Virus record (IMG/VR): IMGVR_UViG_3300030419_005190
Location: 1-22,255 of that record
Length of the DNA stretch: 22,255 bases
DNA from: a virus
Reading direction: 5' to 3' (one strand)
Shown: one piece after another, positions 5,618 to 22,255 of the stretch
Layout: each line of letters begins with the position of its first letter
Position numbering within the stretch: the first letter of the stretch is position 1
Program-made: the position numbers and the translations under genes
Notes under the pieces: generated by a model
Told to the model about the DNA's origin: nothing
Database searches by the model: none
Seen by the model: only the letters and a program-made list of their open reading frames with translations

Positions 5618-5634
5618 TTTATATCCTCTTAATA

Positions 5635-8144: not shown

Positions 8145-8504
8145 CTATGACTTAAACGGCCATATCAATCCCGTTGTTTTTTCAAAGTCTTTAATAGCTC
8201 TATCCAACTTTATTTTAGATTTATAGGTTCTAGGATCATCCAATCCAAATTTTTTGGCGGAAACCATAAATTGTTTTTCGTTTCCTAAAGCTTTAGCATA
8301 AGAGGCTATTTCCGATTTTGTGCCTCGAACTTGAAAATTCGGCAGAGGACCTGGACCAATATTATATGTCCCAAACATCTTTCCAAGAATCATCTTAGTC
8401 AACCCTCCGAACATCCTCAACCAACTTTCGGTTAAGAGACCGTTTCGAGCCGCGCCTAAATCGACGATTTGTTCAGAAAGCTCATCTTCATGAAGATTTT
8501 CCAC
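8145..8504 (-). CDS. Unknown small tail protein (119 aa)
   Basis: I choose the GTG at 8504 because GGAGG lies eight bases upstream. A TTG seven codons further up would place the binding site inside the gene. The protein begins MENLHEDELSEQIVDLGAAR, has a short Met/Leu-rich helix with glycines (LRMFGGLTKMILGKMFG), and ends in a basic helical region (RGTKSEIASYAKALGNEK, then FEKTTGLIWPFKS). I do not recognise a named family. It is the first gene after a terminator and an ACTATTTA element and lies immediately before the tape measure, so a role in tape-measure handling or hub assembly is plausible, by position only. Confidence 0.75.
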   Translation of the reverse strand: MENLHEDELSEQIVDLGAARNGLLTESWLRMFGGLTKMILGKMFGTYNIGPGPLPNFQVRGTKSEIASYAKALGNEKQFMVSAKKFGLDDPRTYKSKIKLDRAIKDFEKTTGLIWPFKS

Positions 8505-8535
8505 TATAATTTCCTCCAGACACAATTATCTCTTA

Positions 8536-8543
8536 TAAATAGT
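8536..8543 (-). promoter_or_regulatory. ACTATTTA element, putative late promoter core
   Basis: An exact ACTATTTA on the coding strand, 31 bases before the GTG start at 8504 and directly after the terminator at 8554-8580. Context is GAGACTATTTATAAG. It is probably the start of the unit carrying the 119-aa gene, the tape measure and the baseplate genes. Confidence 0.6.
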
Positions 8544-8553
8544 CTCATAATTT

Positions 8554-8580
8554 AAAAAAAAAGACTGCTTTCGCAGTCTT
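8554..8580 (-). terminator. Strong intrinsic terminator after the chaperone genes
   Basis: The coding strand forms a perfect eight-base stem, AAGACTGC with GCAGTCTT, closed by a GAAA tetraloop and followed by a run of nine T. The stem overlaps the TAA stop of the 61-residue frame. This is a textbook factor-independent terminator for leftward transcription. Confidence 0.93.
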
Positions 8581-8764
8581 ATCTCTTTCTTCCAGTCTTT
8601 GAAGTTTTTGAGGCCTTCTTCATTTCTTCAGACTCTTTCTTAAGTTGATCTGCCAACTTGGTGACAAACCATCTTCTTAAACCTACAGGCAGACTATATG
8701 CCTCTATAAAGCTCCATCCTCCATAATATTTTAGAAAGAAGAACTCTTCATAAACGCTCTCCAT
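8579..8764 (-). CDS. Small tail-assembly chaperone-like frame (61 aa), possibly the C-part of a frameshift fusion
   Basis: The 61-residue product begins MESVYEEFFFLKYYGGWSFI, continues SLPVGLRRWFVTKLADQL and ends in a Lys/Ser-rich tail. A short 'LKY-GGW-SLPVxLRRWF' protein between the tube and tape-measure genes matches the downstream part of two-frame tail-assembly chaperones; T4 gp51 occupies a comparable functional place but is larger (249 aa). The ATG follows the gp26-like stop by seven bases. I see no ribosome-binding site. Its frame is open upstream across a run of seven T inside the previous gene, so it may be made as a frameshift extension instead of, or as well as, a separate protein. 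The terminator overlaps its stop. Confidence 0.75.
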   Translation of the reverse strand: MESVYEEFFFLKYYGGWSFIEAYSLPVGLRRWFVTKLADQLKKESEEMKKASKTSKTGRKR

Positions 8765-8771
8765 GTACTTA

Positions 8772-9632
8772 TCACTTAGGCCAAAAAAACTCCGCTGTCA
8801 GCGGAACCTCCATTGTTGTCTCTGTAAGACATTCCTCGCAAAAGAACTTCTGGGTTAAATCAACATTTGGAACTGATTTACCATAAACTGTTCGAAGATG
8901 TCTTGAATCTGTAGCAGGCATATTATCAACAAATTTAGAAATTGTATTTCTATCTGTATGCCCATTAACAGATTCAATAAACATTTTGAACTGTGAAGTT
9001 AGATTATTCTCTCCCATCCCGTGTTTAGATTTTGATTGCTGCATTTTTACCAAGGCGGCTTCGTCTCTACCCGTCAACATTTTAGCCTCGACCACAACAT
9101 TAGACTTCGGCAGGGTGATTAATAAAGTGCCGTTATCTGTTAATTCTGCGCCATGGGCGGCACATTTATCTGGACCATTAATTTCTGCTAATGCCAAATT
9201 AAACTCATGTCTAGATGTGTTTGCGCAAACTGGACACGTAACGCTCGTTTCGTACTCTGATCCATATCCCGTCTGTCTAGCAGCAATAATAATTGCGTTT
9301 TTATCTCCAACCAAAAGCTGGTCTGGTTTGATTGCCTTGTCCGTCATAACATTTTGCAACAAACGATCAATTGCCAGACCCTTCTTCAAAAGAGATTTAG
9401 ATGTTAAGATATCTTCATCTTTAGCTGTCATATGGCGAATTTCGACAGTTTCTTTGTTGTGCAGTGGGTGCCCTTCTGGATAAAATCTTCCTTGGGAAGG
9501 CAATTCTACGAACTCAACTGGCGTTGCAAAATCTAACGTACCAGGAGTTGTTGTTTCTGTTGCGTCGATTGGGGGAGCATCAGCGGCTGGCTGGTTCGTT
9601 CCAATTCGATCTTCGTTATTTCGTGTAGACAC
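8772..9632 (-). CDS. gp26-like baseplate hub-assembly protein with zinc-ribbon cysteines (286 aa)
   Basis: Residues 40-125 contain the signature of the T4 gp26-like 'T4 baseplate' family: VELPSQGRFYPEGHPL, TVEIRHMTAKDEDILTSKSL, VGDKNAIIIAARQTGYG. Two CxxC pairs, C133/C136 (CPVC) and C265/C268 (CEEC), suggest a zinc ribbon. Members of this family act in assembly of the central baseplate hub and, judging by gene position between tube and tape measure, probably as tail-assembly chaperones. The start is GTG with GAGG six bases upstream. The first 33 residues are polar and probably disordered. Near the 3' end lies TTTTTTTGG, a candidate slippery site. T4 gp26 is shorter (208 aa). Confidence 0.85.
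   Translation of the reverse strand: MSTRNNEDRIGTNQPAADAPPIDATETTTPGTLDFATPVEFVELPSQGRFYPEGHPLHNKETVEIRHMTAKDEDILTSKSLLKKGLAIDRLLQNVMTDKAIKPDQLLVGDKNAIIIAARQTGYGSEYETSVTCPVCANTSRHEFNLALAEINGPDKCAAHGAELTDNGTLLITLPKSNVVVEAKMLTGRDEAALVKMQQSKSKHGMGENNLTSQFKMFIESVNGHTDRNTISKFVDNMPATDSRHLRTVYGKSVPNVDLTQKFFCEECLTETTMEVPLTAEFFWPK
8783..8789 (-). other. Seven-T run, candidate ribosomal frameshift site
   Basis: The zero-frame codons are GAG TTT TTT TGG CCT AAG TGA. The frame of the following 61-residue gene is open from a TGA four codons before the T run, through the run, to its ATG, with no stop. A +1 or -2 shift on the run would fuse the two proteins. The -1 frame reaches TAA almost at once, so only +1 or -2 would work. 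Confidence 0.5.
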
Positions 9633-9708
9633 TTATCACCTCATAATTTATGTGTACTATAAGTATATAGGTATTTTTTATAAATGTTAAGGAAAAAGTT
9701 TATGGCTA

Positions 9709-9751
9709 GAACGTGCTACCCTATTTTGGCCCAGGGCCGAACGTGGTACCC
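9709..9751. repeat. Imperfect 30-base tandem duplication across the tube stop codon
   Basis: On the plus strand GAACGTGCTACCC (9709-9721) and GAACGTGGTACCC (9739-9751) differ at one base and are 30 bases apart, with similar flanks (TTTTGG and CTTTGG). In the tube frame the second segment lies after the TAG stop and reads GSTF then TAG, echoing the GTTF inside the tube protein's end. Confidence 0.7.
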
Positions 9752-10257
9752 GCTTTGGTCATAGCGGCATAATCATATCGAATAGTAATTGAAATTTCTA
9801 CCAGATCCTCGGAACCATAATCAAGAGATCCAAACTCTACGTTTTTGATCCAAGCATTTTCGAGAGTCCACTCTTCAATGACATCTGACGCGCTGCCTCC
9901 AATTTGCTTTAGATACACAGTACCAAGAGCATCGACTGAATCTTTCTTAGTTATAACATCTGACGTGGCCGCGGCGACGTCAATCGGAAGATTGTATCCG
10001 GAGTGTTGCAGGATGGCCATCAACGTCGCTGATGCGTCTGGAGAGGCTGGATCAACCATTGTGACTGTGATCTCGTTCCAAGTTACTCTGCCTGGGTAAT
10101 AGTAAGTGTGATTAAGAAACTGATGCTCTGTTTCCGATACCTCAAAACCTGGTTTATCGGCTGTTTTGATAATATAATCAATTCCCCAGTTAGAGAAGTT
10201 CATTAAGTATTTAAAACTTCTTTTTGGTTCTAATTGTGTGGTGCTCCAAAATGCCAT
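9721..10257 (-). CDS. 19: Tail tube protein (gp19-like, 178 aa)
   Basis: The protein builds the inner tail tube through which DNA passes. Length is close to T4 gp19 (163 aa). The N-terminus PKRSFKYLMNFSNWGIDYII, the central loop HQFLNHTYYYPGRVTWNEIT and the C-terminal strand ISITIRYDYA follow the usual gp19/tube pattern, and it directly follows the sheath gene as in T4. The best ribosome-binding site, AAGGAG, sits 13 bases before the ATG, longer than usual. An exact ACTATTTA element lies 29 bases upstream, giving this highly expressed gene its own probable promoter. A partial duplication of the 3' end follows the stop. Confidence 0.9.
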   Translation of the reverse strand: MAFWSTTQLEPKRSFKYLMNFSNWGIDYIIKTADKPGFEVSETEHQFLNHTYYYPGRVTWNEITVTMVDPASPDASATLMAILQHSGYNLPIDVAAATSDVITKKDSVDALGTVYLKQIGGSASDVIEEWTLENAWIKNVEFGSLDYGSEDLVEISITIRYDYAAMTKAGTTFGPGPK

Positions 10258-10286
10258 TTTTTTAATTTGTCTCCTTGTTACTATTC

Positions 10287-10294
10287 TAAATAGT
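10287..10294 (-). promoter_or_regulatory. ACTATTTA element before the tail tube gene
   Basis: An exact copy on the coding strand, 29 bases before the tube ATG in the 60-base gap after the sheath gene. Here it extends into a perfect inverted repeat, ACTATT-TAG-AATAGT. It would allow tube transcription independent of the sheath. Confidence 0.55.
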
Positions 10295-10317
10295 GTCTAT
10301 AAAAAATTACCTTTGAA

Positions 10318-13278
10318 TTAATCTTCAAATGCTGCCCCGTCATTCGTAATTACGAAGTCTAGTGCGATGAACTCAACTGCTTTCGCTGGCTTGAGCAAGA
10401 TCTTTGCGTACATGATATTTCTATCAACAAGATCCGGGGTTGTTGTCGACTCATCAAGAACAACTCGGAAATCTGTTAATCCAAGTCGAGTTCTGATTGA
10501 TTTTAAGAACGGTTCTGCTTGTCCTCTAAATCTCTCCCATGTAGTGCGTACATTTTGATCGAACAAGAGTGTTGCTGCCATTCTAGAAATCTCTTTCTTT
10601 ACATGAATCATCAGTCGACGAACATTGATTCTATCAAGAGCAGAATCTGTTGCCTGAAGCGTCTTTTGTCCGAAGATAACGATACCCTCTGCAGGGAATG
10701 TTGCAATCGGATTAATATCGGCTTCATAAAGCTTATCTCTGTCTTCAGAAGTAAGTCTCTGGCGAACACCTACGACTGGGATACCTGCGGCGCCGTCTGT
10801 GAGGCCTCCGCGTGTAAATCCTGCAGGAGCAAACCAAAGTTCAGTCTTTCTTTCCGAACTAGCCATTGTGCCAATGGCAGCAATGGAGGGCGGCATCCAA
10901 ATGGTTCTATTTGAAATAGTGTCTCTTGCTTGGACCCATGGATAGAACGCACAACCATAACTTGAATTAAGGCCTCGCGAGAGCATCGAAGATACTGCGC
11001 TATCGACTGTACCAACATTTGATTGGTCTCCGGCCGTATTTTCTACATTTGTGCTGAAGTCATTCTCGATATCAATGATAGCGAGGGCGTCTCCGCGACC
11101 TTCACAAGTATTAATCAAGTGCTCTGTGATTTGAGGTTTAGAAATGCCCGGGACAACTGCAAGATTAAAGTCGACGACCTCGGGGTCCGAACAAGCATCA
11201 ATGCCGCGCTTAACTGTGTAATAGGCATACTCATTAAGCTCATTATCGCCCATTCTTGTGTTGTTGAGCGGGTCTCTTTCTGAAACGTCCCAACCGTCAT
11301 GACCGCCGTCAAGAACGGTTGTGAATCGATTGAAGCCCTCATCGAGAACCTGCTTCCAGCTTGAAGAAAGTGCAGTCAACGAAGTACCAGACCCTCTCGA
11401 ACCGGATATCCATCTTGCGCCACCTGTGCCGGTGTAAGATGCAAGGTCATCAAGTGTAAATGTCCAGGAATATTCTGTGTTTGTTCCTGGTGTAAATTGT
11501 TGCGCGCTCATATGAGAGGGCAATGGACGAAGAACGTCCAAATTACTCTTATCAAACTTTACGCTACCCGATTTTGTTGTGTCTGCTCCAAAATATGCAT
11601 GCTTTGGGTTTGAAACCGGTGGAGTTTGTGTATTTTGGCGTAGCGGTACTGATGGGAAAATAACCGAGCATGTTGTCTGCATCAACGGCTGGAATGCCTG
11701 GGCGATGCTAGCGGCGTTACCCAAGCTGCCGCCGGCGAGCTTGAGATCTTCAGTCCAATCACTGAGCTTGCCCTGATCAGCCCCGGTATGATAGGAACTC
11801 AATGGCAAAATATAAGAATTTGCAACAGTTATTGCAGTGCCAGTTGTATCCGGATCAAATCCCTCATTGAAGCCAGTTGCGGCAGAGCCAGATCTAAACG
11901 AAAGTGTTTTTGGTCTGACTGGGCCATATACTCCGAATGGGAGATATTCAGCGTTTGTTGCGCCTGCATCGACGTCTGCGTTCATTTCTACACGAAGAAA
12001 TTTAGACAGATTTGGATAATTTCCATATTCCTTATGTCTCTTCTCGCTATCATCCCAAGTTACATATCTGTCACCTATCTTTTTAGCGACATAATCTGGT
12101 GAATTAGGATTGAGGTTACAGGAACTGAATCTTTCTACGACCTGAACCTTGTTATCGTTGTCGGACATTCTTCTAACAACCACGGTGAACTTGCCATATG
12201 GATCATCCAAACTAGTTGCCGCTTTAATGTCCTGAATCGATACCTTGAGATTTTGAGATGTCCATGCTCCGCCGTCCAAAGAGATTAAGCGGAACAATTG
12301 TTGTGTATGATCGGAATAGTGGAAGCCGCCATCAGGGGCACCACCACCAGTATTTCGAAGGTCTTGTGAGAAGAACCAGCCAGTTTGCGCAGCATTCATT
12401 CCCTGTTGGTGAATGCCGGCATGAGTAGCAGCGGATAAACCAAGACCAACAATACAACCCCAGGATCCACCTGAGTTTGTAGCTGATGTGTTGTTTGCAT
12501 CAACATTATCAACGACTGCTCTATCAAAAGTTTCACCAAGCCAGTATACTTCCTGCTGCGCAGTAGCTGTGCAGCCAGAGTTAGTCAATGTCGGATTTGT
12601 ATTAAACACTTTTCTGATATATTTCTGGGATGTGTTGTTTAAATTGAAGTTAATAGTTGTCGTAGTATCATCCGCCTTATTAATAATAGCTTTAAATTCG
12701 TGATTGGCGCCTTGGGACTCAATCAAAAGGCCGGCTCCCTGAGCGGTGAGCGAAGACGATGCAGCTGCTGTTCCAGAAAGATGGATAGAGCCTTCATTCA
12801 GATACCAAATTGCAGCAAGAGTTCCTGTTGTTGGTGTTGTAACAGAAGATGCGGATCCCCATAAAAGAAGTCCGTAAGCACCACCTGCACTAGCCGATGC
12901 GTTGGACGGTGTATTTGTTGTTTTCCAGCCTGCTTCACCGCCAGTGAGGGCGTCAGTATGTTGATTTCCCAAAAGACGAACTACGTTAATTGGGCCGGAG
13001 TTTTTAAGCCAGGCTTGGGCGGCATATGGGGCATATGTTGCGGAAGTTTTGTTTCCGTCTCTCCAGACGTCGCCGCCGTCGCCACCTGGGATTGGATTTC
13101 CAAAAATCTCTACGAATTCAGAAAAAGACTGAACCTTTACTGGCCTCATTGCTGGGCCTCTCTCTGTGCGTCCAATTACCAGTGGGCCGATTGCCTCTGC
13201 TGTACTTGGAACCTGTGAATTATCGATTTCATCAATGAAAACACCTGGGGACACAAACTTGAACTTATCAACTGACAT
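10318..13278 (-). CDS. 18: Contractile tail sheath protein (gp18-like, 986 aa)
   Basis: The sheath contracts around the tube to drive it through the host envelope. The N-terminus KFVSPGVFIDEIDNSQVP, followed by GPLVIGRTERGPAMRPVKV and an FxEFVEIFG segment, is the classic sheath N-terminal arm and handshake region. The C-terminal 290 residues (from about 690: DFNLAVVPGI, then VRRLMIHVKKEISRMAATLL, TWERFRGQAEPFL, AKILLKPAKAVEFI) form the conserved core. It is about 330 residues longer than T4 gp18 (659 aa). The extra material lies mainly in residues about 110-470, a Gly/Thr/Ser/Ala-rich beta region with YWLGETFDRAVV, probably on the outer surface. AGGAG lies ten bases before the ATG, with an ACTATTTA element further upstream. 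Confidence 0.95.
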   Translation of the reverse strand: MSVDKFKFVSPGVFIDEIDNSQVPSTAEAIGPLVIGRTERGPAMRPVKVQSFSEFVEIFGNPIPGGDGGDVWRDGNKTSATYAPYAAQAWLKNSGPINVVRLLGNQHTDALTGGEAGWKTTNTPSNASASAGGAYGLLLWGSASSVTTPTTGTLAAIWYLNEGSIHLSGTAAASSSLTAQGAGLLIESQGANHEFKAIINKADDTTTTINFNLNNTSQKYIRKVFNTNPTLTNSGCTATAQQEVYWLGETFDRAVVDNVDANNTSATNSGGSWGCIVGLGLSAATHAGIHQQGMNAAQTGWFFSQDLRNTGGGAPDGGFHYSDHTQQLFRLISLDGGAWTSQNLKVSIQDIKAATSLDDPYGKFTVVVRRMSDNDNKVQVVERFSSCNLNPNSPDYVAKKIGDRYVTWDDSEKRHKEYGNYPNLSKFLRVEMNADVDAGATNAEYLPFGVYGPVRPKTLSFRSGSAATGFNEGFDPDTTGTAITVANSYILPLSSYHTGADQGKLSDWTEDLKLAGGSLGNAASIAQAFQPLMQTTCSVIFPSVPLRQNTQTPPVSNPKHAYFGADTTKSGSVKFDKSNLDVLRPLPSHMSAQQFTPGTNTEYSWTFTLDDLASYTGTGGARWISGSRGSGTSLTALSSSWKQVLDEGFNRFTTVLDGGHDGWDVSERDPLNNTRMGDNELNEYAYYTVKRGIDACSDPEVVDFNLAVVPGISKPQITEHLINTCEGRGDALAIIDIENDFSTNVENTAGDQSNVGTVDSAVSSMLSRGLNSSYGCAFYPWVQARDTISNRTIWMPPSIAAIGTMASSERKTELWFAPAGFTRGGLTDGAAGIPVVGVRQRLTSEDRDKLYEADINPIATFPAEGIVIFGQKTLQATDSALDRINVRRLMIHVKKEISRMAATLLFDQNVRTTWERFRGQAEPFLKSIRTRLGLTDFRVVLDESTTTPDLVDRNIMYAKILLKPAKAVEFIALDFVITNDGAAFED

Positions 13279-13323
13279 GTTAAAATTACTCCTATAACTG
13301 CGAAATTTGTATGATTTCTTAAA

Positions 13324-13331
13324 TAAATAGT
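13324..13331 (-). promoter_or_regulatory. ACTATTTA element before the tail sheath gene
   Basis: An exact copy on the coding strand (context ATACTATTTATTTAAG), 45 bases ahead of the sheath ATG, the longest spacing among the copies. A small hairpin (13334-13353) lies just before it, directly after the gp15-like stop. Confidence 0.6.
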
Positions 13332-13355
13332 ATATTGCTCACCGAAAAGCAATCA

Positions 13356-14192
13356 TTAATCACGATAAAATCCTTTTTTATCAATGTGACTTGGAATGTC
13401 TCCAAAAATTACATGCTCGCGAGGTAATTTCACCTCCACGGCATTTTCTCTTTTTACGATTTTTGGATTCTTTTGGTTGTCTTCCTCTCCCATTAAATAA
13501 CCCAAAACTTTTAATTCTATATCTGTAACATACGTTCTTTCTTCTTCATTCATAGAAGCTATATTGTTGTTCAGATTATAGGTGTCACCGATGAACATTT
13601 CATAGTAATGATCGTTTCTTATTAAAGCTATCAAATTTAGCCCATGAGGCCTGGTTATAAACGGTGTCATTAATTTATTCATCTGCTCTTGATATTCTGT
13701 CCGAATACTAAGTTTATATATCACATCAATATAAACAGGAAGCGGGGCAGATACAGTCTCATAAACTATCTTTTTGTTTTCCTGTTTCGTTGGAAAATTA
13801 ATTTGGCCATGGCCTGATCCGCCGGTAGTTTTTTTCTGGCTATCGGCATTTAAAAAATTAGCAGTTTTATCTTGTTTTATCGTCCTGGATATTACTATTC
13901 CCTCTCCCTGACCAACATTGCCATAATACGTTCCCTTTCTATCTAGATTTTTGGTTATCGACGTTCTTTCTAATGTTGTGATTGGGAGAATCAGTACGCC
14001 CTGGTCGTCTCTCAGGTCCTTGTTCCTTTTAACCTGATTTGCGCGCTCGGCGCCGGCCCAAATAACAGGAACTTTTTTAAATCCCTCGTTTGTGTCGGAA
14101 GACATGTTTAGATTTTCATCGATGAATTCAAAAACAGCAAGATCTATATTTTCAATCGTTGATGGTCGTATTTCAATTATTTCTTCTGCCAT
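13356..14192 (-). CDS. 15: Tail sheath terminator / stabiliser (gp15-like, 278 aa)
   Basis: T4 gp15 (272 aa) caps the finished tail and links it to the neck; this protein has nearly the same length and the same place between gp14-like and sheath genes. The central part (VYIDVIYKLSIRTEYQEQ then MNKLMTPFITRP) resembles the gp15 segment where strands are followed by a helix ending in 'ILPFF'. Earlier segments such as KVPVIWAGAERANQVKR and LPITTLERTSI also fit this family. The ATG follows the previous TAA by two bases and lacks a clear ribosome-binding site, so translation is coupled. The gene ends CGT GAT TAA. Function is assigned from order, length and pattern similarity. Confidence 0.78.
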   Translation of the reverse strand: MAEEIIEIRPSTIENIDLAVFEFIDENLNMSSDTNEGFKKVPVIWAGAERANQVKRNKDLRDDQGVLILPITTLERTSITKNLDRKGTYYGNVGQGEGIVISRTIKQDKTANFLNADSQKKTTGGSGHGQINFPTKQENKKIVYETVSAPLPVYIDVIYKLSIRTEYQEQMNKLMTPFITRPHGLNLIALIRNDHYYEMFIGDTYNLNNNIASMNEEERTYVTDIELKVLGYLMGEEDNQKNPKIVKRENAVEVKLPREHVIFGDIPSHIDKKGFYRD

Positions 14193-14194
14193 TT

Positions 14195-14680
14195 TTAATT
14201 ACCGTCAAATAATCCTTTTCTTGCTCTAATACATTTAGCTGAAATCTCGACGCTGTGGTCGACCTGGCCGAAAAGCTTTTTTGGTTCAGCCAATGCAACT
14301 ATCTCATAATAAATATCGCCATATAAAACAAAGTCACCGACCCTAACAAAAAGATCTTGATCTTCTGTCAGTCTTCTTTTGTGAAAGTGAATCATAATCG
14401 ATGCATTTCTATCAACACCTATGTTCTCGGAATATGCAGTTGTATATTCTTCCCATTCAACCAGCGCATACACTCGTATAGGAGGCAAAAATGTCTTTTC
14501 TACCGCCTCTCCGTATAGTCTATGATATTTTGTTAAGTCATCATCGATAGGATAATATGCAACTTGTTGACCAATGACTCTTTCAATAAGCTCATCATTT
14601 ACCTGCTTAACTAAATCGCGTTCTGGCTTACCTGTAAATAACGGGGGCGGCGGATTTTCTGGTTGTGTCCATTTTCCCAT
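14195..14680 (-). CDS. 14: Neck / head-closure protein (gp14-like, 161 aa)
   Basis: T4 gp14 (256 aa) joins gp13 in the neck to close the packaged head. This protein is a shorter version covering the conserved core: VIGQQVAYYPID, then a beta region SIMIHFHKRRLTEDQDLF, VGDFVLYGDIYYEIVALAEP and the run of KLFGQVDHSVEISAKCIR. It parallels gp14's CYYVPRE, GDLIYFP and FEINWVEPYDPFYQLGQ. It ends within a basic IRARKGLFDGN and lacks the long gp14 tail. The ATG lies seven bases after the gp13-like stop, with AAGGA overlapping that stop, so the two are coupled. Confidence 0.78.
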   Translation of the reverse strand: MGKWTQPENPPPPLFTGKPERDLVKQVNDELIERVIGQQVAYYPIDDDLTKYHRLYGEAVEKTFLPPIRVYALVEWEEYTTAYSENIGVDRNASIMIHFHKRRLTEDQDLFVRVGDFVLYGDIYYEIVALAEPKKLFGQVDHSVEISAKCIRARKGLFDGN

Positions 14681-14686
14681 CTTTTA

Positions 14687-15955
14687 TTATCCTTGGAATA
14701 TCGGCAGTGGAAGCTTTTCTTGCATCTTAAGAACATTATCGAGAGTACTGGCATCATTCTCAACCAACTGCTTGTATAGCGTTTCATCAAGAACTGTCTT
14801 AAGTTCCTCTCTAAGTTTATCTTGCTCCTCTTTTGCTTCAGAGATCAGGGCTGGGCCATTTAATGTAACTGCATCTCCGGGGATTGGCACTGTTGCAAAT
14901 TTGCTTCGAATTTGCCCCAGCATTTCTTTCGCAACAGAAAGTGAGAACCTTCTAATCCATTGTTTCCCTATTGAATTGATCGTATCATATCCGATATTTG
15001 CAAATGGAAGGTTGTTCATGTTATTGACTCCGCCAACATTATGTGTCCTGTTGGAATCCTCTTCCCATGGTTGCTTTTCGCTTGGAATAATAAATTCAAC
15101 CCACATTTTATTTGGACCGACAGTTGTGGTCATCGGAAATATTCTCAATTTATTATTTTTTAACTCGTAAGAATAGTGTGAATTTCTCGTATAAATTGCA
15201 TCTTCAAACATTAATGCTTGTTGTTTATTTTGCCAAACTGGTATAATTTGAAATTGTGAATCATCTGCCCACTGGCCGTAATTCTGCATATTTCCAACTG
15301 TATTTAAGCCTCCATAATATCCATAAAATCTCCACATAGACTGTGGAGTCTTGTAATAAACTTTTCTAATTAAAACTCTGTTATTTCCAACCTTATTATA
15401 AAAGTCTAATGTATTATCTGCACCAGCTTGTGTTGATATTATAGACTGCAGGTCGTAATCCTGAACAGAGGAAGTTGTGTTAAATGATGCTGAATATACA
15501 TTTTCGAAACCGTTTAAATTAACCTCATTGGAGACTGCATGGCCTACTTTTCTAGCATATGAAAATTGAAATTGAGGATAACTTGATTCAATGGCCTTAT
15601 TTTCTAAAGAATGTCCAGATTGAATTTGGCCGTCTTGGTCAAAACTTCCTGTTGTGCTTCCCAGAAGATCCGAAAGAACATTTTTTGATTGATGAACATT
15701 TACAAGATAAGAATATTCTAAAACTGCCTCTTCATAAGCCGCATAAACATTCCCCTCTGTTAATTCTATGTCTAGTACATCTCCGCCTAATTTCTTATAT
15801 GTGTAGGCAACCTGATCGGCCGCACCGGACAGGAAATTAGCGTTGCTAGCATATATTCCAAAAGCTAACTCTGCAGAAACACTAGAAACTGTTCCTGTCG
15901 CAGGCAATTTGCTTGCGCTGGTTTCGCTTGCTGGGGTTAAGGTGGGACGGGCCAT
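14687..15955 (-). CDS. 13: Neck / head-completion protein (gp13-like, 422 aa)
   Basis: The match to T4 gp13 (309 aa) is clear at both ends. LDIELTEGNVYAAYEEAVLE near residues 58-80 mirrors gp13's 'INVELTPDQIYDCIQRALE'. QWIRRFSLSVAKEMLGQIRS followed by PGDAVTLNGPALISEAKEEQ and KLREEL mirrors gp13's 'WVKDYATALAKELNGQI...LPGGVTIDGQRLIEEAR...ALREEL'. gp13 and gp14 form the connector between portal and tail. The extra length comes from a polar N-terminus, internal expansions and a C-terminal helix (YKQLVENDAST then LDNVLKMQEKL). The start is ambiguous: ATGAATGAATGG holds three ATGs in three frames, and only the last (15955) opens this gene. AGAGGAG lies about ten bases upstream. Confidence 0.9.
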   Translation of the reverse strand: MARPTLTPASETSASKLPATGTVSSVSAELAFGIYASNANFLSGAADQVAYTYKKLGGDVLDIELTEGNVYAAYEEAVLEYSYLVNVHQSKNVLSDLLGSTTGSFDQDGQIQSGHSLENKAIESSYPQFQFSYARKVGHAVSNEVNLNGFENVYSASFNTTSSVQDYDLQSIISTQAGADNTLDFYNKVGNNRVLIRKVYYKTPQSMWRFYGYYGGLNTVGNMQNYGQWADDSQFQIIPVWQNKQQALMFEDAIYTRNSHYSYELKNNKLRIFPMTTTVGPNKMWVEFIIPSEKQPWEEDSNRTHNVGGVNNMNNLPFANIGYDTINSIGKQWIRRFSLSVAKEMLGQIRSKFATVPIPGDAVTLNGPALISEAKEEQDKLREELKTVLDETLYKQLVENDASTLDNVLKMQEKLPLPIFQG

Positions 15956-15976
15956 TCATTCATTTCTCCTCTTGAA

Positions 15977-15984
15977 TAAGTAGT
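15977..15984 (-). promoter_or_regulatory. One-mismatch ACTATTTA element (ACTACTTA) before the neck genes
   Basis: The coding strand reads ACTACTTATTC, one base from the exact element, 21 bases before the gp13-like ATG and just after the strong terminator that closes the capsid unit. That position supports it as a promoter variant for the gp13-gp14-gp15 unit. Confidence 0.5.
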
Positions 15985-15993
15985 TTAGCGGAT

Positions 15994-16034
15994 AATAAAA
16001 AGCCCTCCAAGAAGAAAACTTCAAGGAGGGCTTT
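15994..16034 (-). terminator. Strong intrinsic terminator after the major capsid gene
   Basis: The coding strand has AAAGCCCTCC pairing with GGAGGGCTTT, a two-base internal mismatch, an inner GAAG/CTTC stem and a TTTT loop, followed by TTTTTATTA. It lies 27 bases downstream of the capsid stop and isolates the capsid unit from the neck genes. Confidence 0.92.
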
Positions 16035-16061
16035 GCTCTTTGAGAAGCGATTTATATGTTA

Positions 16062-17837
16062 TTAACCGAGAAGGTCAGCAACAATAACAAGACCATACAT
16101 ATCTGGTCTAACCATCTTCTTGGCATAGCGGGTCATGACCCCCTTACGAGGTACAAAGTCCTCGATACCGAAGATAGTCGGAGTGATCTGGAGAGGCACG
16201 TAAGGTGCGTACACATATCCACTCTCAAGGAAGGAACCTCCCTTGCGACCGACAAGTACAACGTTGCGCGGGAAGTATGGATCAACATACACATCCCACT
16301 TCTTGCTAAGAGATCCTGCTTTAACAGCACCAACAGTGCCGCGATCAGCATCACCAGTTACATCAGCACGGAAGCCAGATGTAAACTCAAGAATGTTCGC
16401 AACCTCTGGGGAACAAACAATGAAGTTTGCTCCGCCTCGGAGCGTCTTGCGGTGAATTTGAGCGGAAACATCGTTGATTGTTTCAGCGAGAGTCTCATAC
16501 CACTCGGAAACAGTACCAGTGAAGTCAGGAGGTCCAAGAGCGGAAGTTCCGCCTGAGATCTCAAGCGATTCACCGGTATTTCGATTGAGGAACTTGCCCG
16601 GGCGGCGTGACCAGAAATATTTACCAGCGGTCGCACCGGCGATGAGATCAGAAAGGATCTCACGGTCAATTTCAAGAGCAATTTGCTCAGAAAGAATACC
16701 AGTAAGCTCAACCTCTGCATCAAGGTTATGATAAGCGTTAAGATCTTGACCAAGCTCTGGGGTCCATTTGGCCTTGAGCTTTTTGGTTACGGCCGTGACC
16801 GATACGCTGTCGACCTTAATGTCGATTTCTGGAATAGCTCCAGTGTTCTCAAGTCCCCAAGTATCAACACCAACAACAGCACCAAGGGCGTTATCCGCAG
16901 ATGCAGCGGGTGTGCCAGTGAAGTCATCAGCTAGCGGGAAATGAAGATCAGCGACAGTATATCCATCGTTAACGGCAACGGTACCAGTATTGATACACTC
17001 CAAGAACAGGAGCACATGAGCCGTAGAAGAACCAGAGAACTGAGTCAAACGACGGACGAGGCGGGTACCAGGGGCAGCACCTTGGCCCATTGTATTGCCG
17101 CCAGCTGCATCGGATAGGTCAATAGCAACAAGATTGTCGCGATTCAACACTGTTTCTTGGGTAGCTGTTTTGAGATCGGAAGTAGCGACTCTATAGACGA
17201 CAATGTTGGAACCAGAAAGATCTGGGTCAAAACGCGTTAACGAGTCAAGACCGGCTTGATCTACGACACCAAGATCTGCAACAGAACCCAGTTGGCCATT
17301 GTTTCCGCCAGCGGTACCGGAAGCGACGAGCGCTACAGTTACTCCAGCGACTGCTCCAGTTGGTGAAGAATAACCGTTGTTAAGGCTATAGAAGCCTTCT
17401 TCAAGGTTTTCCCCGGTGAGGTCAACACCACCGGTCAATTGTTGACCGAGGACGCCGCCACCATAAAGTGAATCATTGGCTTCCGTGCCAAGCTTTGTGT
17501 GATGGGCTTGGAAGTCAAGAAAGAAGATGAGTCCCGAAGGGAGACTCATCGGTTGAACAGATACGAGGTCATTAGCAATGAGACCACCGAAAACACGGCG
17601 AACGATTGGGAATGCTACAGCAGCAAAACCCTCAACGTCACCTGCAGCCATGGAAGATGCTTCGCGAAGAAGCTCCTTGGCCTGGTTTTCAAGAAGAGAT
17701 GCCATGCTAGCGCGAGTGCGATCAGAATCAAGTCCTTCTAATAGACCTGTCTTTTCCCACTTGCTCATCAAGGCAGCACCCTCTTTCTGGAGATCTCTGT
17801 TAACAATGCCCTCTGTTAATTTATCAAGTACAGACAT
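16062..17837 (-). CDS. 23: Major capsid protein precursor (gp23-like, 591 aa)
   Basis: This is the precursor of the hexameric shell protein. The N-terminus follows T4 gp23: KWEKTGLLEG, SLLENQAKELLREASS (gp23 has 'IFENQEKDF'), then FPIVRRVFGGLIANDLVSVQ and PMSLPSGLIFFLDF, matching gp23's 'VRRAIPNLIAFDICGVQPMNSPTGQVF'. L57-R58-E59|A60 fits the prohead-protease consensus (L/I)-x-E with Ala after the cut, as at T4 gp23's processing site, predicting a mature protein of about 532 residues. It is 70 residues longer than T4 gp23 (521 aa). Middle expansions are rich in Gly, Ala and Val. AAGGAG lies nine bases before the ATG, 16 bases after the scaffold stop, and a strong terminator follows. Confidence 0.95.
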   Translation of the reverse strand: MSVLDKLTEGIVNRDLQKEGAALMSKWEKTGLLEGLDSDRTRASMASLLENQAKELLREASSMAAGDVEGFAAVAFPIVRRVFGGLIANDLVSVQPMSLPSGLIFFLDFQAHHTKLGTEANDSLYGGGVLGQQLTGGVDLTGENLEEGFYSLNNGYSSPTGAVAGVTVALVASGTAGGNNGQLGSVADLGVVDQAGLDSLTRFDPDLSGSNIVVYRVATSDLKTATQETVLNRDNLVAIDLSDAAGGNTMGQGAAPGTRLVRRLTQFSGSSTAHVLLFLECINTGTVAVNDGYTVADLHFPLADDFTGTPAASADNALGAVVGVDTWGLENTGAIPEIDIKVDSVSVTAVTKKLKAKWTPELGQDLNAYHNLDAEVELTGILSEQIALEIDREILSDLIAGATAGKYFWSRRPGKFLNRNTGESLEISGGTSALGPPDFTGTVSEWYETLAETINDVSAQIHRKTLRGGANFIVCSPEVANILEFTSGFRADVTGDADRGTVGAVKAGSLSKKWDVYVDPYFPRNVVLVGRKGGSFLESGYVYAPYVPLQITPTIFGIEDFVPRKGVMTRYAKKMVRPDMYGLVIVADLLG

Positions 17838-17853
17838 TTTAATTTTCTCCTTT

Positions 17854-18864
17854 TTAATTATTGTCTTTAATCCCTGCTAAAGTCTTCCATCTGGAAGAAA
17901 CAGGGTTTGAAATATTTGTCTTGTCATTACGACGCGACAGGGTTGCTGAAGAAGAACGTGTGACTGCCTCGCGTAGTGATTTTGGACCTGGCTTGCTGCC
18001 TGTTCCCACTGTGCTTTGAAGTGTGTCATAAATAATTTTTGCCTCTTCAACGGTCGACGTTTTGGATAGAGCTTCGACAATCTTTGTTTTTTGTCGCTCA
18101 TTCAGGGAGGGGCTGCCCAAAACACGATTTGTATAGAGAAGTTTAGCATTTGAAAGATTTACTTCGTCAAGATGCTCTTTCAATTGTGAAACTACCTCTT
18201 CGAACTTAGAATTTTGACCTTCAAGTTCCTCAATTTTTGCGTTGAGGGTCTTAATAGTCTCTTCAAGTTCAGTTTTTTCTTCGTCTTCATCCAATTCTTC
18301 TTCTGCGGTGAGTTCTTCAGCTTTGGCAGCATCAGCGAGTTCTTGCTCCGCTGCATTATTTGTGCCTCCACCTGGAACTCCAGAAGGAACTGGGCGTAAA
18401 TCGACTACCAGATCTTCTAATAGATCTGCGATTTCATCTAAATTCTCTTCTGTGATGTCAAGCTCTTCTTCAAGTTCTTCGTCTTCTTTGACGGTCTCTT
18501 GTTCCTCTTCCATCACATCATCAGCCGCATCTAAGTGATCCTCTTGATCCTCTGCAATTGCTGCATCGGCCTGGGCTTTCAACTCATCAAATGAGACTGT
18601 ATACGTATCGTCTGGACATGGGCAGTCCTCATCGAGATCTTCGATGTCTGCTCTCGTCATATCTTCCATAAATTCTTTATCGCCTTCGGAAGTTTCGGCT
18701 TCTTCTGTGGCCAACTCTTCTTCTGGTTGCTCTTCCAAAAGATTATCGACCGCTTCTTTTACTTCTAGAGAGTATTTCTCTAGAATGATAGATTCTGCGT
18801 TCTTAAGTGCGGCATCCTTAAGTGCTTCCGCATCAATAATTGCTTGTTCTAACATTTTTGACAT
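17854..18864 (-). CDS. 22: Prohead core scaffolding protein (gp22-like, 336 aa)
   Basis: The scaffold forms the internal core on which the prohead assembles and is later degraded by the prohead protease. I choose the ATG at 18864 (MSKMLEQAIIDAEALKD) because AGGAG lies eight bases upstream; a TTG six codons further up would contain that site. The protein is extremely acidic through about residues 45-200, then forms a coiled coil (ELEETIKTLNAKIEELEGQN). The C-terminal block AKLLYTNRVLGSPSLNERQK with IVEALSKTSTVEEAKIIYDT is the conserved gp22 pattern of marine T4-like phages, and SSRWKTLAGI closes it. An unusual CPCPDD lies within the acidic region. It is longer than T4 gp22 (269 aa). The capsid gene follows 16 bases later. 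Confidence 0.9.
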   Translation of the reverse strand: MSKMLEQAIIDAEALKDAALKNAESIILEKYSLEVKEAVDNLLEEQPEEELATEEAETSEGDKEFMEDMTRADIEDLDEDCPCPDDTYTVSFDELKAQADAAIAEDQEDHLDAADDVMEEEQETVKEDEELEEELDITEENLDEIADLLEDLVVDLRPVPSGVPGGGTNNAAEQELADAAKAEELTAEEELDEDEEKTELEETIKTLNAKIEELEGQNSKFEEVVSQLKEHLDEVNLSNAKLLYTNRVLGSPSLNERQKTKIVEALSKTSTVEEAKIIYDTLQSTVGTGSKPGPKSLREAVTRSSSATLSRRNDKTNISNPVSSRWKTLAGIKDNN

Positions 18865-18885
18865 AATTTGACTCCTAATCAAGAA

Positions 18886-18893
18886 TAAATAGT
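18886..18893 (-). promoter_or_regulatory. ACTATTTA element before the scaffold-capsid unit
   Basis: An exact copy on the coding strand (ACTATTTATTCTTG), 21 bases before the scaffold ATG and ten bases before its AGGAG, in the 63-base gap after the fibre gene. It would drive scaffold and capsid together. Confidence 0.62.
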
Positions 18894-18927
18894 GTTGTTT
18901 TTAGTAAAATGACATTTTTTGAATATT

Positions 18928-21714
18928 CTACTTGTCTTCTAGCTCTTTTACTCTCTCAGTAAGTTCCTGTACTGCTTTAATAAGGGGCGTCACAAGGACG
19001 GCATATTTAATTCTTTGTCGGCCGTCGCTTTGGGCCTCGTCCCACGCGCTACAGGAAACACCATGCTCTTCCATTGCTGATTTTAATTCTTGAGCAATTA
19101 GACCATCGTGAAACGATGTTTCGTCAAAATCATCAGGCCTTTCTTCTGGATTTTCTCCTTTGAAACGAGGCTCAAGAATCTCGCTAGGATAATCAGCGGG
19201 ATTGACTCGTTGAAATTTAACAGGACGCAGGCTATTAATAAATGCTAGGCCTAGATCTGTATCCACTACATTTTTCTTAATGCGAGCATCAGAATAAGTA
19301 CCAAAAGACACTGCGCCTGCGATAGTGGTAATTGAGCCGTTCCCGAGAGCCACCTCATTATTCGCAGTTCCGGTTGTGTTGCCACCTATAACAATCTGAT
19401 TCTGGGCGCCATCGGTTGAAGGGTCCGCAGCGTTACCTATGCATACGTTGCCCGACCCGGATGTGATAAGATCTCCCGCTGTGGAACCAACAAAAACATT
19501 GCCTTGCGCGGCTCCCTGCAAAAGCAATCCGGCGTCGTTACCAACAGCTGTATTGTTGTTTCCTGTAAGTTTTGGTGATGGAAGGCCCTGGCCTGCTTGA
19601 TTTCCAACAAATGTACACCCTGTTGCAGTGGTAATAAATTGCCCTGCTTGATATCCAACTGCGGTGTTGCCGACTTCGCCCGCACTTGCATTCTGAGCAG
19701 CTAAAGCCTTATACCCAACGGCTGTGTTTTGATCACCATCGTCTTCAGAATCCAGAGCATTGTAGCCAACAATCGTATTACCGATTCCTGAAGTGATAGC
19801 TGCTCCTGCATCTTTACCGATTGCAATAGTACCATTGGCGTCGGTAGTCATAACGGCTGCGCCGGCGCCTGCGCCGATGATGACAAGCTCCCCTGCTGCA
19901 GTTGTTGCACCGCCTGCGCCGTCACCAATTAGAGTATTGTTGTCGCCACCTTGGAGGGCATCGCCTGCTGCGGCACCAACGATTGTGTTTCCAGTTCCTG
20001 TTGAAACCGCTTGTCCTGCATTATAACCAACGGCTGTATTGTTGCCGTGACCATCAGAATCTGCTTCAAAAGTTTCTAGGGCCTGATAGCCAACAGCAGT
20101 ATTGAAGTCGCCGTCGACATTCGAATTTAAAGCCTCGAAGCCAACTGCAACATTTCCTGCACCAGTAGTAAGGCTCGCGCATGCGCCATGGCCTATTATA
20201 ACTGTACCATCTGCAGCGGCGGTCATATTTGATACTCCGGCGCCATAACCAACCACAACGGTCTGATTAACACCAGTTGTGGCTCCACCAGAATTGACAC
20301 CCATAAATACGTTTTTGATTCCTGTTGTCAACGCATCGCCGGCCGCGGCGCCTACTGCCGTATTTCCAACTGTGCCATTTACTCCAGTTTGAGACAAAAG
20401 AGCATTATGTCCGACTGCAGTAGACAAATCTCCGGTTGCCTCTGCAGTCAGAGCTTGGTGGCCAACTGCAACATTATATACTCCTGAAGTAATGGCTGCG
20501 CCGGCGGCCTTACCAATTAAAACAGTTCCGTCAGCGTCGAGGGTCATGATTGCTCGACCAGCTTGATGTCCAATTATAACAGAGTTATCTAAGTCAGTTG
20601 TTTTGTCTCCTGCTTGGTGTCCAATAATTACATTATTGTCTCCAGTAGAAAGGGCATTTCCTGCATTTTCTCCAACAACAATATTATATGCGTTTCCGGT
20701 CCCTAAAGACCCAGATCTACCAAATACGACATTTGATGTACCAGCATCAGTCGGAATTAACGTCTTATTATTAATGTTTAGATATCCAGCTTCGAGATAG
20801 GCTCCACTTACCTGCTGCGCATATACCACACTTCCTGTGATTCCCATTGATGCTGTAACTTGGCCTGCGACTGCCAATACACTAGTAACGGCATTAAATG
20901 TTAAATTAGTTTCCGCATCCAGTTCTGTTGTTGTTGCACCAACTGTTACTAACTCATTAGCTGTTGCGTTATTAAGCGCGGTTACCGGAATGGATATAGT
21001 CTGCCACGAACAGGAGCCGTCGCCGTCTTCTCTTAAGAACTTGGATCCTCCGCCTTCGCCCGTAGATTTAAGTTCAGTTCCTTCGAGGTCAACTGTAAAT
21101 GTTAAATCATATGGATCTGCATCGGAGCCGTCCGAAGTATCGGTGAAGTCGATATCAATTCCGGTGCCTTCTACGAATTTTACTTCTTTTCCATCTCCAA
21201 CAGTAACTTCTGTGCCATCTCCATCTTCCAGGATCCAATTGCTCATTCCACCACCGCCGCCGCCAACACTGGAGTGATCAGCAGACACATCCATAAACTG
21301 TTGTAAGTACCAATTGGTTCCATCAAAAGTCCATGTAGTTATGTCTCCTGCTGCTGTAGTAATATTTGTTGAACCACCTTTGAGGTTGGTGCTCGTTACA
21401 TCGAATACGACTGCGGCGGTTGATATAACAGTGATTGTTTGGCCAGTAACACCGTCGTCGAACATGGTTAATGTTTGACTAGAAGCGTGAGTTTTGAAAA
21501 GATTTCCATCAGCTACAGAAGGAGTGGTATCACTTTCTCCAAAAGTAACAAAAGTTTTACTTGGCCCACTAAAGGCCGCGGCTCCAGCAACATGAAGACT
21601 TGTCGCGGGAGATTCTGTATTTACACCTACTCGATTATTTGTATTGTCGACATATAAAGTTCCACTGTCGACATTAAGCTCATCCTGTTCTCCTGACCCT
21701 GGCTTGAAACCCAT
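18928..21714 (-). CDS. Fibre protein with beta-roll repeats and S74 intramolecular chaperone (928 aa)
   Basis: A trimeric fibre, probably for adsorption or head/neck decoration. Residues 18-45 hold the fibre motif RVGVNTESPATSLHVAG. Residues 50-150 form a beta domain ending in WTFDGTNWYLQQF, and a six-glycine hinge follows near 155. Residues about 160-240 include LREDGDGSCSWQ. Residues about 341-793 carry about 26 repeats of the type NTAVGYQAG, as in the heads of YadA-like trimeric adhesins. The C-terminal 121 residues are a peptidase S74 chaperone starting SDARIKKN. In this family it aids trimer folding and cuts itself off just before the serine, here S808. HDGLIAQEL and the final coiled coil (AVQELTERVKELEDK) complete the domain. 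AGGGGGGA lies about seven bases before the ATG. Confidence 0.9.
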   Translation of the reverse strand: MGFKPGSGEQDELNVDSGTLYVDNTNNRVGVNTESPATSLHVAGAAAFSGPSKTFVTFGESDTTPSVADGNLFKTHASSQTLTMFDDGVTGQTITVISTAAVVFDVTSTNLKGGSTNITTAAGDITTWTFDGTNWYLQQFMDVSADHSSVGGGGGGMSNWILEDGDGTEVTVGDGKEVKFVEGTGIDIDFTDTSDGSDADPYDLTFTVDLEGTELKSTGEGGGSKFLREDGDGSCSWQTISIPVTALNNATANELVTVGATTTELDAETNLTFNAVTSVLAVAGQVTASMGITGSVVYAQQVSGAYLEAGYLNINNKTLIPTDAGTSNVVFGRSGSLGTGNAYNIVVGENAGNALSTGDNNVIIGHQAGDKTTDLDNSVIIGHQAGRAIMTLDADGTVLIGKAAGAAITSGVYNVAVGHQALTAEATGDLSTAVGHNALLSQTGVNGTVGNTAVGAAAGDALTTGIKNVFMGVNSGGATTGVNQTVVVGYGAGVSNMTAAADGTVIIGHGACASLTTGAGNVAVGFEALNSNVDGDFNTAVGYQALETFEADSDGHGNNTAVGYNAGQAVSTGTGNTIVGAAAGDALQGGDNNTLIGDGAGGATTAAGELVIIGAGAGAAVMTTDANGTIAIGKDAGAAITSGIGNTIVGYNALDSEDDGDQNTAVGYKALAAQNASAGEVGNTAVGYQAGQFITTATGCTFVGNQAGQGLPSPKLTGNNNTAVGNDAGLLLQGAAQGNVFVGSTAGDLITSGSGNVCIGNAADPSTDGAQNQIVIGGNTTGTANNEVALGNGSITTIAGAVSFGTYSDARIKKNVVDTDLGLAFINSLRPVKFQRVNPADYPSEILEPRFKGENPEERPDDFDETSFHDGLIAQELKSAMEEHGVSCSAWDEAQSDGRQRIKYAVLVTPLIKAVQELTERVKELEDK
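19340..20695 (-). repeat. About 26 NxAVGxxAG repeats, nested in three larger copies
   Basis: Each short unit is 14-24 residues with the core N-[TV]-[AIV]-[VI]-G-x-x-A-[GL]. Three larger copies start at 20583, 20262 and 19887 (residues 378, 485, 610), about 107 and 125 residues apart. Each runs: VIIG/VVVG unit, MT-x-x-A-[DN]-GT unit, AAITSG-like loop, NVAVG/NTIVG unit ending AL, a GD loop, a TAVG unit ending AL, then NTAVG. Confidence 0.88.
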
Positions 21715-21726
21715 TAGACATCCCCC

Positions 21727-22152
21727 CTATGCCTGATCTTGAATCCCTGGCCACTCGCTACCGGAAATATACATATTACTCAAAGAGCCCGTTGGGATTG
21801 TGGTAAGTTCTGCAAAGATCTGATATGAAGCGGCTTGAGATCCGTCAATATTAGAAATGTATATTCTCTCTGCCTTGACACTCATATCCAGTGAATCTTC
21901 AGCGGAATTTAAAGTAATATAATGAAAACTCCCTGTTGTTTGAGCGATTGTTTTACTAGCAAAATGAACGAGAATATCCGGCGCGGCCTGATTAATTACA
22001 ACGATTCTCTTTGTAACGGTTGGAAACGAAATTTCATGCTCGGACCCAACAGCCAAGGCGTTCGAACCTGTAAGAAACGGATATCCAGAAACCAAATAGG
22101 CCGCTGAATTGCCTACTCCCTGATTGTATCTAAAATCTGCACCATCTGCCAT
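21727..22152 (-). CDS. Putative small virion protein (141 aa)
   Basis: A soluble beta-rich protein: GVGNSAAYLVSGYPFLTGSN at the N-terminus, then ISFPTVTKRIVVINQAAPDI, LVHFASKT and SVKAERIYISNIDG. It resembles small structural proteins I associate with marine T4-like phages, possibly head decoration or fibre-related, but I cannot name the family firmly. AGGAG lies nine bases before its ATG and an exact ACTATTTA element 24 bases before it, and the fibre gene starts 12 bases after its stop, so the two probably form one unit and may act in the same structure. Confidence 0.75.
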   Translation of the reverse strand: MADGADFRYNQGVGNSAAYLVSGYPFLTGSNALAVGSEHEISFPTVTKRIVVINQAAPDILVHFASKTIAQTTGSFHYITLNSAEDSLDMSVKAERIYISNIDGSQAASYQIFAELTTIPTGSLSNMYISGSEWPGIQDQA

Positions 22153-22175
22153 AATTTAATTCTCCTGGTTTTCTA

Positions 22176-22255
22176 TTAAATAGTATCTCTTTCGCGTTTT
22201 AACTTGTCTAAAACAGCTTTTCTTCGCTTATTTTGTTTACGTTTCGCCTCGGATG
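22176..22255 (-). CDS. C-terminal end of an upstream gene (cut by right edge)
   Basis: The last 25 codons read SEAKRKQNKRRKAVLDKLKR and then ERDTI before TAA. This is the longest of the three minus-strand frames at the edge. The tail is strongly basic and helical. By T4 gene order, a portal, prohead-core or prohead-protease gene might lie here, but these residues alone do not decide. The stop codon TAA overlaps the ACTATTTA element of the next unit. Confidence 0.5.
   Translation of the reverse strand, partial: SEAKRKQNKRRKAVLDKLKRERDTI
22177..22184 (-). promoter_or_regulatory. ACTATTTA element before the 141-aa protein and fibre genes
   Basis: An exact copy on the coding strand (GATACTATTTAATAG), 24 bases before the ATG at 22152, overlapping the stop codon of the gene at the right edge. 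It probably starts the small virion protein and fibre unit. Confidence 0.58.

Follow-up and report, generated by a model that had tools for sequence, protein, structure and literature searches.

Layout of the locus

The window, the whole stretch of DNA analysed here, is 22,255 nt long and makes up an entire IMG/VR record. Besides the major capsid and head-tail connector genes (Table 1), it has named structural matches to a tail sheath, a tail tube, a baseplate hub, a baseplate wedge and a tail-spike-like protein. Downstream of the connector gene, positions 14195-14680 encode a 161-aa protein with a faint portal match (phrog_68, E 0.0013) that is too short for a portal. The major capsid gene contains, at 17526-17550 (-), a 10-pair hairpin with a T-rich sequence behind it. 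No near-identical DNA was found in the phages collection, and a host search with the connector protein in genome contigs returned 29 pattern matches and no relatives.

The octamer ACTATTTA occurs exactly five times in the window, each time between genes on the coding (-) strand and never on the + strand. The start codon follows after 31 nt (copy at 8536), 29 nt (10287), 45 nt (13324), 21 nt (18886) and 24 nt (22177); for 18886 and 8536, the in-frame ATG 18864 and GTG 8504 (preceded by a ribosome-binding site) were used instead of the longest-ORF starts. Dinucleotide shuffles of the window hold a mean of 0.91 copies on both strands together, and none of 100 shuffles reaches five. Counts and coordinates agree with the original prediction, which had placed five copies 21-45 nt before starts in the gaps between genes and had judged the word rare by chance. 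The two one-mismatch sites that it listed are also present: ACTACTTA at 15977, 21 nt upstream of its start, and AATATTTA at 5635. Taken together, octamers with at most one mismatch are no commoner in the window than expected (22 against 25.3), so that the 5635 site remains weak.

Two sites had been said to follow strong terminators. This holds in full at 8536, which a terminator directly precedes, and only in part at 15977, where a hairpin can be read in the sequence and is missing from the computed terminator list. The T4 late consensus TATAAATA has three copies in the window, every one on the + strand; there is therefore none on the coding strand, as had been stated for the gaps between genes. 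Two of the three, at 5633 and 8534, are the 5635 and 8536 sites read from the complementary strand. In the gap before the baseplate hub gene (9660-9690, -) the octamer is absent; a sigma-70-like match, TTAACA-17-TATACT (10/12), stands there and overlaps the near-octamer TATACTTA. Sigma-70-like matches across the window number 42 against 32.3 expected and were given no weight. The window octamers plausibly head transcription units, as laid out in Table 1.

Table 1. Predicted promoter elements and their genes in the window
Feature	Position	Strand	Comment
-10 octamer ACTATTTA	22177-22184	-	predicted start ~22171 (A); would drive 21727-22152 and 18928-21714; -35-like element not seen
-10 octamer ACTATTTA	18886-18893	-	predicted start ~18880 (G); would drive 17854-18864 and the major capsid gene
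-35-like GTCATTT	18907-18913	-	ends 13 nt before the 18886 octamer
Late promoter variant ACTACTTA	15977-15984	-	follows terminator-like hairpin; predicted start ~15971 (G)
Units of the 15977 promoter	connector gene 14687-15955 and next two genes	-	would be driven
-35-like GGCTTTT	15998-16004	-	overlaps the hairpin end and its T tract
-10 octamer ACTATTTA	13324-13331	-	predicted start ~13318 (G); would drive tail sheath 10318-13278
-35-like TGCTTTT	13345-13351	-	upstream of the 13324 octamer
-10 octamer ACTATTTA	10287-10294	-	predicted start ~10281 (G); would drive tail tube 9721-10257; GG..TTT-like stretch out of register
-10 octamer ACTATTTA	8536-8543	-	after terminator 8561-8580; predicted start ~8530 (G); would drive 8145-8504 and 5668-8133
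Weak candidate AATATTTA	5635-5642	-	before gene 4853-5617; variant hardly enriched in relatives
Major capsid protein gene	16062-17837	-	phrog_138, major head protein
Head-tail connector gene	14687-15955	-	phrog_211, Ad2; query for finding relatives

The octamer in related phages

Relatives were collected by searching IMG/VR with the connector protein, and the best 80 of 599 loci (58-95% identity) were used; many of the sample numbers of these contigs look marine, which is an assumption on our part. Of the ACTATTTA copies in the 80 loci, 194 point the same way as the connector gene and 7 the other way; 76 of the loci have at least one copy. This count leaves out L001-L005, in which the window is repeated on the + strand; with them it becomes 194/12, five of the 12 being theirs. 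The 14 long records behind the connector loci hold 127 copies on the majority strand and 10 on the minority strand (summed), and part of this skew is ordinary, since the reversed word is skewed as well (89/37). Fourteen other, sigma-selected records, picked for length from 80 sigma loci with the motif ignored, hold 168 copies against 5, and a control word 87 against 72 (summed). The octamer had been proposed as a probable late promoter; in the window it precedes the connector, sheath and tube genes and the gene pair ending in the major capsid gene, and the strand-specific counts in both sets of relatives bear the proposal out.

A word count with no motif assumed was made over 292 non-redundant 110-nt regions upstream of ORFs from the window and the 80 connector loci. 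ACTATTTA is the top 8-mer, present in 81 regions against 1.42 expected and in none on the reverse strand. Its commonest variant is ACTAATTA (25 regions, 1 reversed); TCTATTTA (14, 1 reversed) and ACTACTTA (7, none reversed) are further forms, the last also enriched, and AATATTTA is weak (4, 1 reversed). Some supported form of the octamer stands in 121 of the 292 regions. Two regions contain TATAAATA and seven contain TTGACA, so that neither the T4 consensus nor a host sigma-70-type -35 element, each taken as a criterion, is met at these sites. The octamer lies 18-56 nt before the start codon (10th-90th percentile), upstream of the ribosome-binding site. ORFs were delimited with a plain length criterion, and some of the gene starts used here are bound to be misplaced.

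Copies are not evenly spread through the long relatives G001-G004, where 43 of 73 precede a start on their own strand by no more than 90 nt. Over all 280 distinct letter arrangements of the word (itself included), the mean number of such copies is 3.49 (sd 3.60), and the next-ranked arrangements are a shift of ACTATTTA (25/91) and a word fitting a shift of ACTAATTA (19/41). As controls, the reverse complement of ACTATTTA stands before starts in 3 of 73 copies and TATAAATA in 7 of 97. Tandem octamers, 10 and 32 nt apart, precede one gene each in L074 (2349-2366) and L030 (5264-5303); these are possibly double late promoters.

Strand counts of ACTATTTA are 21/6 in phage immuto, 12/4 in Mel-JY01 and 2/0 in RM378, and 0/6 and 2/5 in T4 and P-HM2, two phages with an ordinary gp55. 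In the 75-115 kb stretch of T4, TATAAATA is found before 10 of 42 starts and ACTATTTA before one; in P-HM2, ACTATTTA precedes none of 52 starts and (any)ATAAATA precedes four. Among the matches listed in a search of open-licence literature only, none for ACTATTTA is concerned with phage promoters by its title, which does not prove novelty.

A -35-like element and the inferred start

In 95 aligned non-redundant sites, positions are conserved both upstream and downstream of the octamer. The upstream positions form a second element, G(G/T)nnTTT, 13 nt upstream of the octamer; it is absent from T4 late promoters and had been missed in the original prediction. Its register is narrow: among 112 sites, the distance from the end of TTT to the octamer is exactly 13 nt in 43, the two adjacent offsets have 18 and 19 sites and -15 to -19 have 3-4, and words of the G(G/T)nnTTT type peak at the same 13-nt offset. 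Terminators are unlikely to account for this where the upstream G+C is low, and 30 of 66 such sites have TTT at this offset.

Motif-free upstream regions, read at the same offsets, served as controls. TTT at -16 to -14 is found in 44 of 79 sites against 3.0% of controls, and TTT with a G at -20 or -19 in 40 of 79 against 1.1%. A purine at +13, 6 nt downstream of the octamer, is present in 67 of 75 sites against 54.6%. With the first of these comparisons, the lack of a conserved -35 element, a criterion for a T4-type promoter, is not met; T4 late promoters have no conservation at -35, as far as the available parts of PMC2988020 and PMC7892883 go. The binomial p-values for the register assume independence, and the sites are not independent because many of them are orthologous promoters.

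The variants were compared at the same offset. TTT peaks there at ACTAATTA sites (13/56, with the rarer G(G/T)nnTTT in 4/56) and at ACTACTTA sites (7/23, with G(G/T)nnTTT in 4/23). The -35-like element is found at none of 25 TCTATTTA sites, and at none of the control words (reverse complement 0/16, reversed word 0/42). Within the window, the element is in register at 18886, 15977 and 13324, shifted at 10287 and absent at 22177, and at 8536 it is reduced to a TTT supplied by the terminator; all six sites (the five exact copies and 15977) have the purine at +13.

Motif, strand, position and register are observed, and the start of transcription is inferred, without transcript ends. Taking the purine as the start would put the octamer at -13 to -6, the place that PMC2988020 assigns to the octamer of T4. 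The full promoter would then read about G(G/T)nnTTT - 13 nt - ACTA(T/A/C)TTA - 5 nt - purine start.

Gene classes behind the putative promoters

A family scan in G001 covered 10 of the 21 genes behind TTGACA and 10 of the 16 behind ACTATTTA. The TTGACA genes encode Hsp20, a DNA-binding protein, a single-strand binding protein, DnaB helicase, DNA polymerase, GroEL, an ATPase and an HNH endonuclease, and two of the ten are without a family. Behind ACTATTTA, one gene matched a virion structural family and one a family of unknown function, with no match for the other eight; the G001 connector gene is also among the 16, outside the ten scanned. The octamer seems to mark the structural gene class, its late timing being inferred from this gene content, and the replication genes have instead TTGACA-type promoters, presumably read by the host. 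By eye, several of the early TTGACA sites of G001 and G002 have GTG or TGTG ~12-16 nt downstream, which would suit an extended -10. Another word enriched upstream of genes is CTTGACAA (10 of 91 regions in G001, 5 of 81 in G002).

A candidate late sigma factor

A search for Sigma70 region 2 in 18 records matched seven: RM378 strongly, and five IMG/VR records and LR756508 faintly. The faint frames are 227-245 aa long and mutually alike. Every connector-selected record of at least 78 kb (six in all, G001 included) carries the sigma gene; it is not on the 22-kb window contig. In the relatives that show it, the connector protein is 58-62% identical to that of the window. The original prediction had suggested a diverged gp55-type recognition site, and the relatives long enough to tell do encode a gp55 homologue. 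Further relatives of the sigma gene in IMG/VR number at least 436 (of 600 candidate stretches listed).

A family model was built from 49 of 80 sigma loci. The other 31 were left out by hand, mostly for thinning and by no fixed rule, and for five of them (L130, L144, L159, L189 and L193) ORF calling gave no usable frame. The model matches all nine long IMG/VR records (E below 1e-100), which are not independent of it: six contributed sequences to it, and the sigma gene itself had led to five. It also matches immuto (1.6e-36) and Mel-JY01 (1.1e-27) in gp55-like frames annotated as hypothetical (NC_055915.1 78174-78872, protein YP_010114565, and PP395634.1 158764-159534), which makes them late sigma candidates. 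The annotated late sigma of Ochrobactrum phage OC is matched at 2.5e-8 over positions 8-164 of 235 only, and there is no match in T4, P-HM2 or RM378. The late sigma family phrog_234 matches three of six members scanned, the three from IMG/VR (E 7e-5 to 5e-3), and does not match the sigma of LR756508, immuto or Mel-JY01. In hhalign, the family aligns with eight gp55s over 109 columns (E 8.7e-6, probability 83); judged by this profile comparison, the N-terminal half is homologous to the sigma-2 region of T4 gp55.

The C-terminal ~100 residues are conserved about as well as the rest of the chain, with 23 of 99 positions invariant and a mean column identity of 67% against 62% for the whole protein. 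This domain has no detectable gp55 counterpart and, in the 49 members, no convincing Pfam match, region 4 included. A T4-type hydrophobic C-terminal clamp-binding tail is not visible by eye, the tails ending KWESGEI-like. AlphaFold2 gives the whole protein a pLDDT of 83 and a pTM of 0.46, and the C-terminal domain alone a pLDDT of 82 and a pTM of 0.67. The listed structural matches of the whole-chain model that name a molecule are sigma factors or RNA polymerase complexes, the best listed being 8x6g_H (Z 10.7, rmsd 7.5, 166 residues); helical models can reach such Z scores by common arrangement. T4 gp55 (7d7c) is not among the best 50 structural matches listed, which excludes nothing. For the C-terminal domain, the best match is the Fusobacterium sigma-H factor 3mzy over residues 130-203 (Z 7.1, rmsd 2.4 A, 74 residues), which presumably are its region 4; the matches listed next include region 4 of sigma-32 and of SigA, with SRP54 chains mixed in. 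By Foldseek alone, E-values for the sigma are above 1 and not significant. A likeness of the modelled domain to region 4 is plausible and not proven, because Z is below 8, Foldseek is not significant and Pfam region 4 does not match.

Phages of other hosts

Immuto grows on a Flavobacterium and Mel-JY01 on a Microcystis. The word TATTTAT stands before 18 of 52 annotated structural-region starts in immuto and 10 of 33 in Mel-JY01, and in neither phage does any of the 21 arrangements of these letters score higher; its reverse complement stands before 9 of 52 and 3 of 33. The capsid genes of these two phages have no TATTTAT-core site, and no -35 element is seen in immuto, Mel-JY01 or RM378. That the core is common to phages of different hosts points to a shared phage sigma and against a host factor. 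In the Rhodothermus phage RM378 (L088), TATTTAA is found before 17 of 53 starts and its reverse complement before 8. The sigma gene of RM378, near the capsid gene, is of the ordinary sigma-70 type and is missed by the family model, so that TATTTAA in this phage is only a lead.

The sliding clamp

Late transcription in T4 requires gp33 and the sliding clamp gp45, according to the part of PMC2988020 that was available. The clamp was sought with phrog_223, as PF02916 proved too insensitive (it missed OC). The probe finds gp45 in all three controls (T4, OC and P-HM2), in none of 11 sigma-bearing records (nine from IMG/VR, immuto and Mel-JY01), and not in RM378. The IMG/VR records are possibly incomplete, and the probe could have missed a clamp that has diverged far. 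DNA_pol_A was rejected as an argument: 8 of 13 have it, Mel-JY01, RM378 and the 93-kb record G005 lack it, and the groups are not cleanly told apart.

Interpretation and alternatives

The reading best supported, which we hold to be probable, is that ACTATTTA serves a family of uncultured T4-superfamily myoviruses as the -10 part of a two-part late promoter, read most likely by a one-piece phage sigma factor whose C-terminal domain contacts the -35 element. In the proposed mechanism, a phage-encoded late sigma would ride on the host RNA polymerase core. Its gp55-like sigma-2 half would bind and melt ACTATTTA, and its C-terminal domain would take up the position of sigma region 4 (or of T4 gp33) and contact the -35-like element. 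The second anchor, for which T4 uses gp33 and gp45, would here be supplied by the sigma itself through contact with DNA, and the late promoter possibly works without a clamp. The sigma gene in relatives, its sigma-2 homology and the extra domain are observations, as is the failure to detect gp45; late timing and the assignment of who binds what are inferences, in the absence of binding data. For the stronger claim, a natural one-piece late sigma combining a gp55-type sigma-2 with a region-4-like domain on a two-part promoter, without gp33 and clamp, the chances appear evenly balanced; gp33 homologues were not searched.

The gp55-like half of the phage sigma might also read the promoter alone, with G(G/T)nnTTT an AT-rich or terminator-derived stretch and a C-terminal domain that does not read DNA. 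The sites at 8536 and 15977 overlap terminator ends, immuto and Mel-JY01 have no clear -35 element, and gp33, the flap occupant in T4, is without DNA sequence recognition in the available text of PMC2988020. This possibility is unlikely, if still to be reckoned with: the element keeps its register 13 nt before the octamer also where upstream G+C is low, and it carries G positions far above controls. A host alternative sigma could read the late promoter while the phage gp55-like protein does something else. Phages can borrow host sigmas, and the two-part layout resembles ordinary sigma-70-family promoters. It is improbable all the same, as a TATTTA core stands before structural-region genes of both Flavobacterium and Microcystis phages that have the same kind of phage sigma, and the promoter types of these two hosts differ.

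A location upstream of the ribosome-binding site, at the distances from the start codon given above, would also fit an element of the 5' untranslated RNA, acting in processing or translation control, with no promoter involved. Against this, the octamer has an upstream partner spaced as in promoters and a purine where a start would lie, it reads like a T4-type -10, and two of the six window sites come after terminators; we give the RNA reading very little credence. Least of all can the octamer be explained by late promoters of the T4 type, with TATAAATA, that face the other way. Complemented, ACTATTTATA becomes TATAAATAGT, and TATAAATA does stand on the + strand at 8534 and 5633, but all called structural genes are on the other strand and just 9 of 81 octamer-bearing upstream regions read ACTATTTATA. 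The resemblance of the complementary strand to TATAAATA, remarked on in the original prediction, looks incidental.

Comparison with known late transcription systems

T4 late transcription is the textbook case in which the sigma factor comes in two pieces driven by the replication clamp. Like the T4 late promoter, as described in the available part of PMC2988020, the octamer takes the -10 place before late genes at an inferred position of -13 to -6. The term "non-T4", applied to it earlier, is right for the consensus and too strong for the element as a whole: T(-11)A(-10) and T(-7)A(-6) are common to the octamer and TATAAATA in the same direction, and the likely recogniser is a gp55 homologue. 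The differences lie in the family consensus ACTA(T/A/C)TTA, the -35-like element and the lack of a detected gp45. In the late promoter of Aeromonas phage Aeh1, a/gC replaces TA at -13/-12; the first two letters, (A/G)C, are thus shared, and ACTAATTA would differ from the Aeh1 promoter at one place (PMC2988020, in part). The passage of that paper concerned with Aeh1 does not mention a -35 element.

The family sigma shares with T4 gp55 (7d7c/7d7d) the sigma-2 region, over the aligned columns given above. T4 gp55 has 185 aa and a clamp-binding tail, whereas the family sigma has ~230 aa, a conserved C-terminal domain and, by eye, no tail. With T4 gp33 and the laboratory gp55-gp33 fusions, it has in common a second domain, here in one chain with the sigma-2 half (PMC2988020, in part). 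In the accessible portion of PMC7892883, gp33 is not structurally related to region 4, whereas the models of the family domain come nearest to region 4 (with no direct comparison to gp33). Section 9 of PMC2988020, so far as available, asks why there is no fused late sigma, none having been found, and the part of PMC3121705 available reports a TATAAATA search in a ViI-like phage.

Significance

Hundreds of IMG/VR relatives, together with the cultured Flavobacterium phage immuto, offer natural candidates for a late sigma in one piece, be it a fusion or an older unsplit state, and the promoter that goes with it. The octamer itself provides a simple marker of late genes for unannotated contigs of the window's phage group. 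If the proposed one-piece sigma is real, late transcription would be uncoupled from replication in these phages, and the split, clamp-dependent system of T4 could be a derived state.
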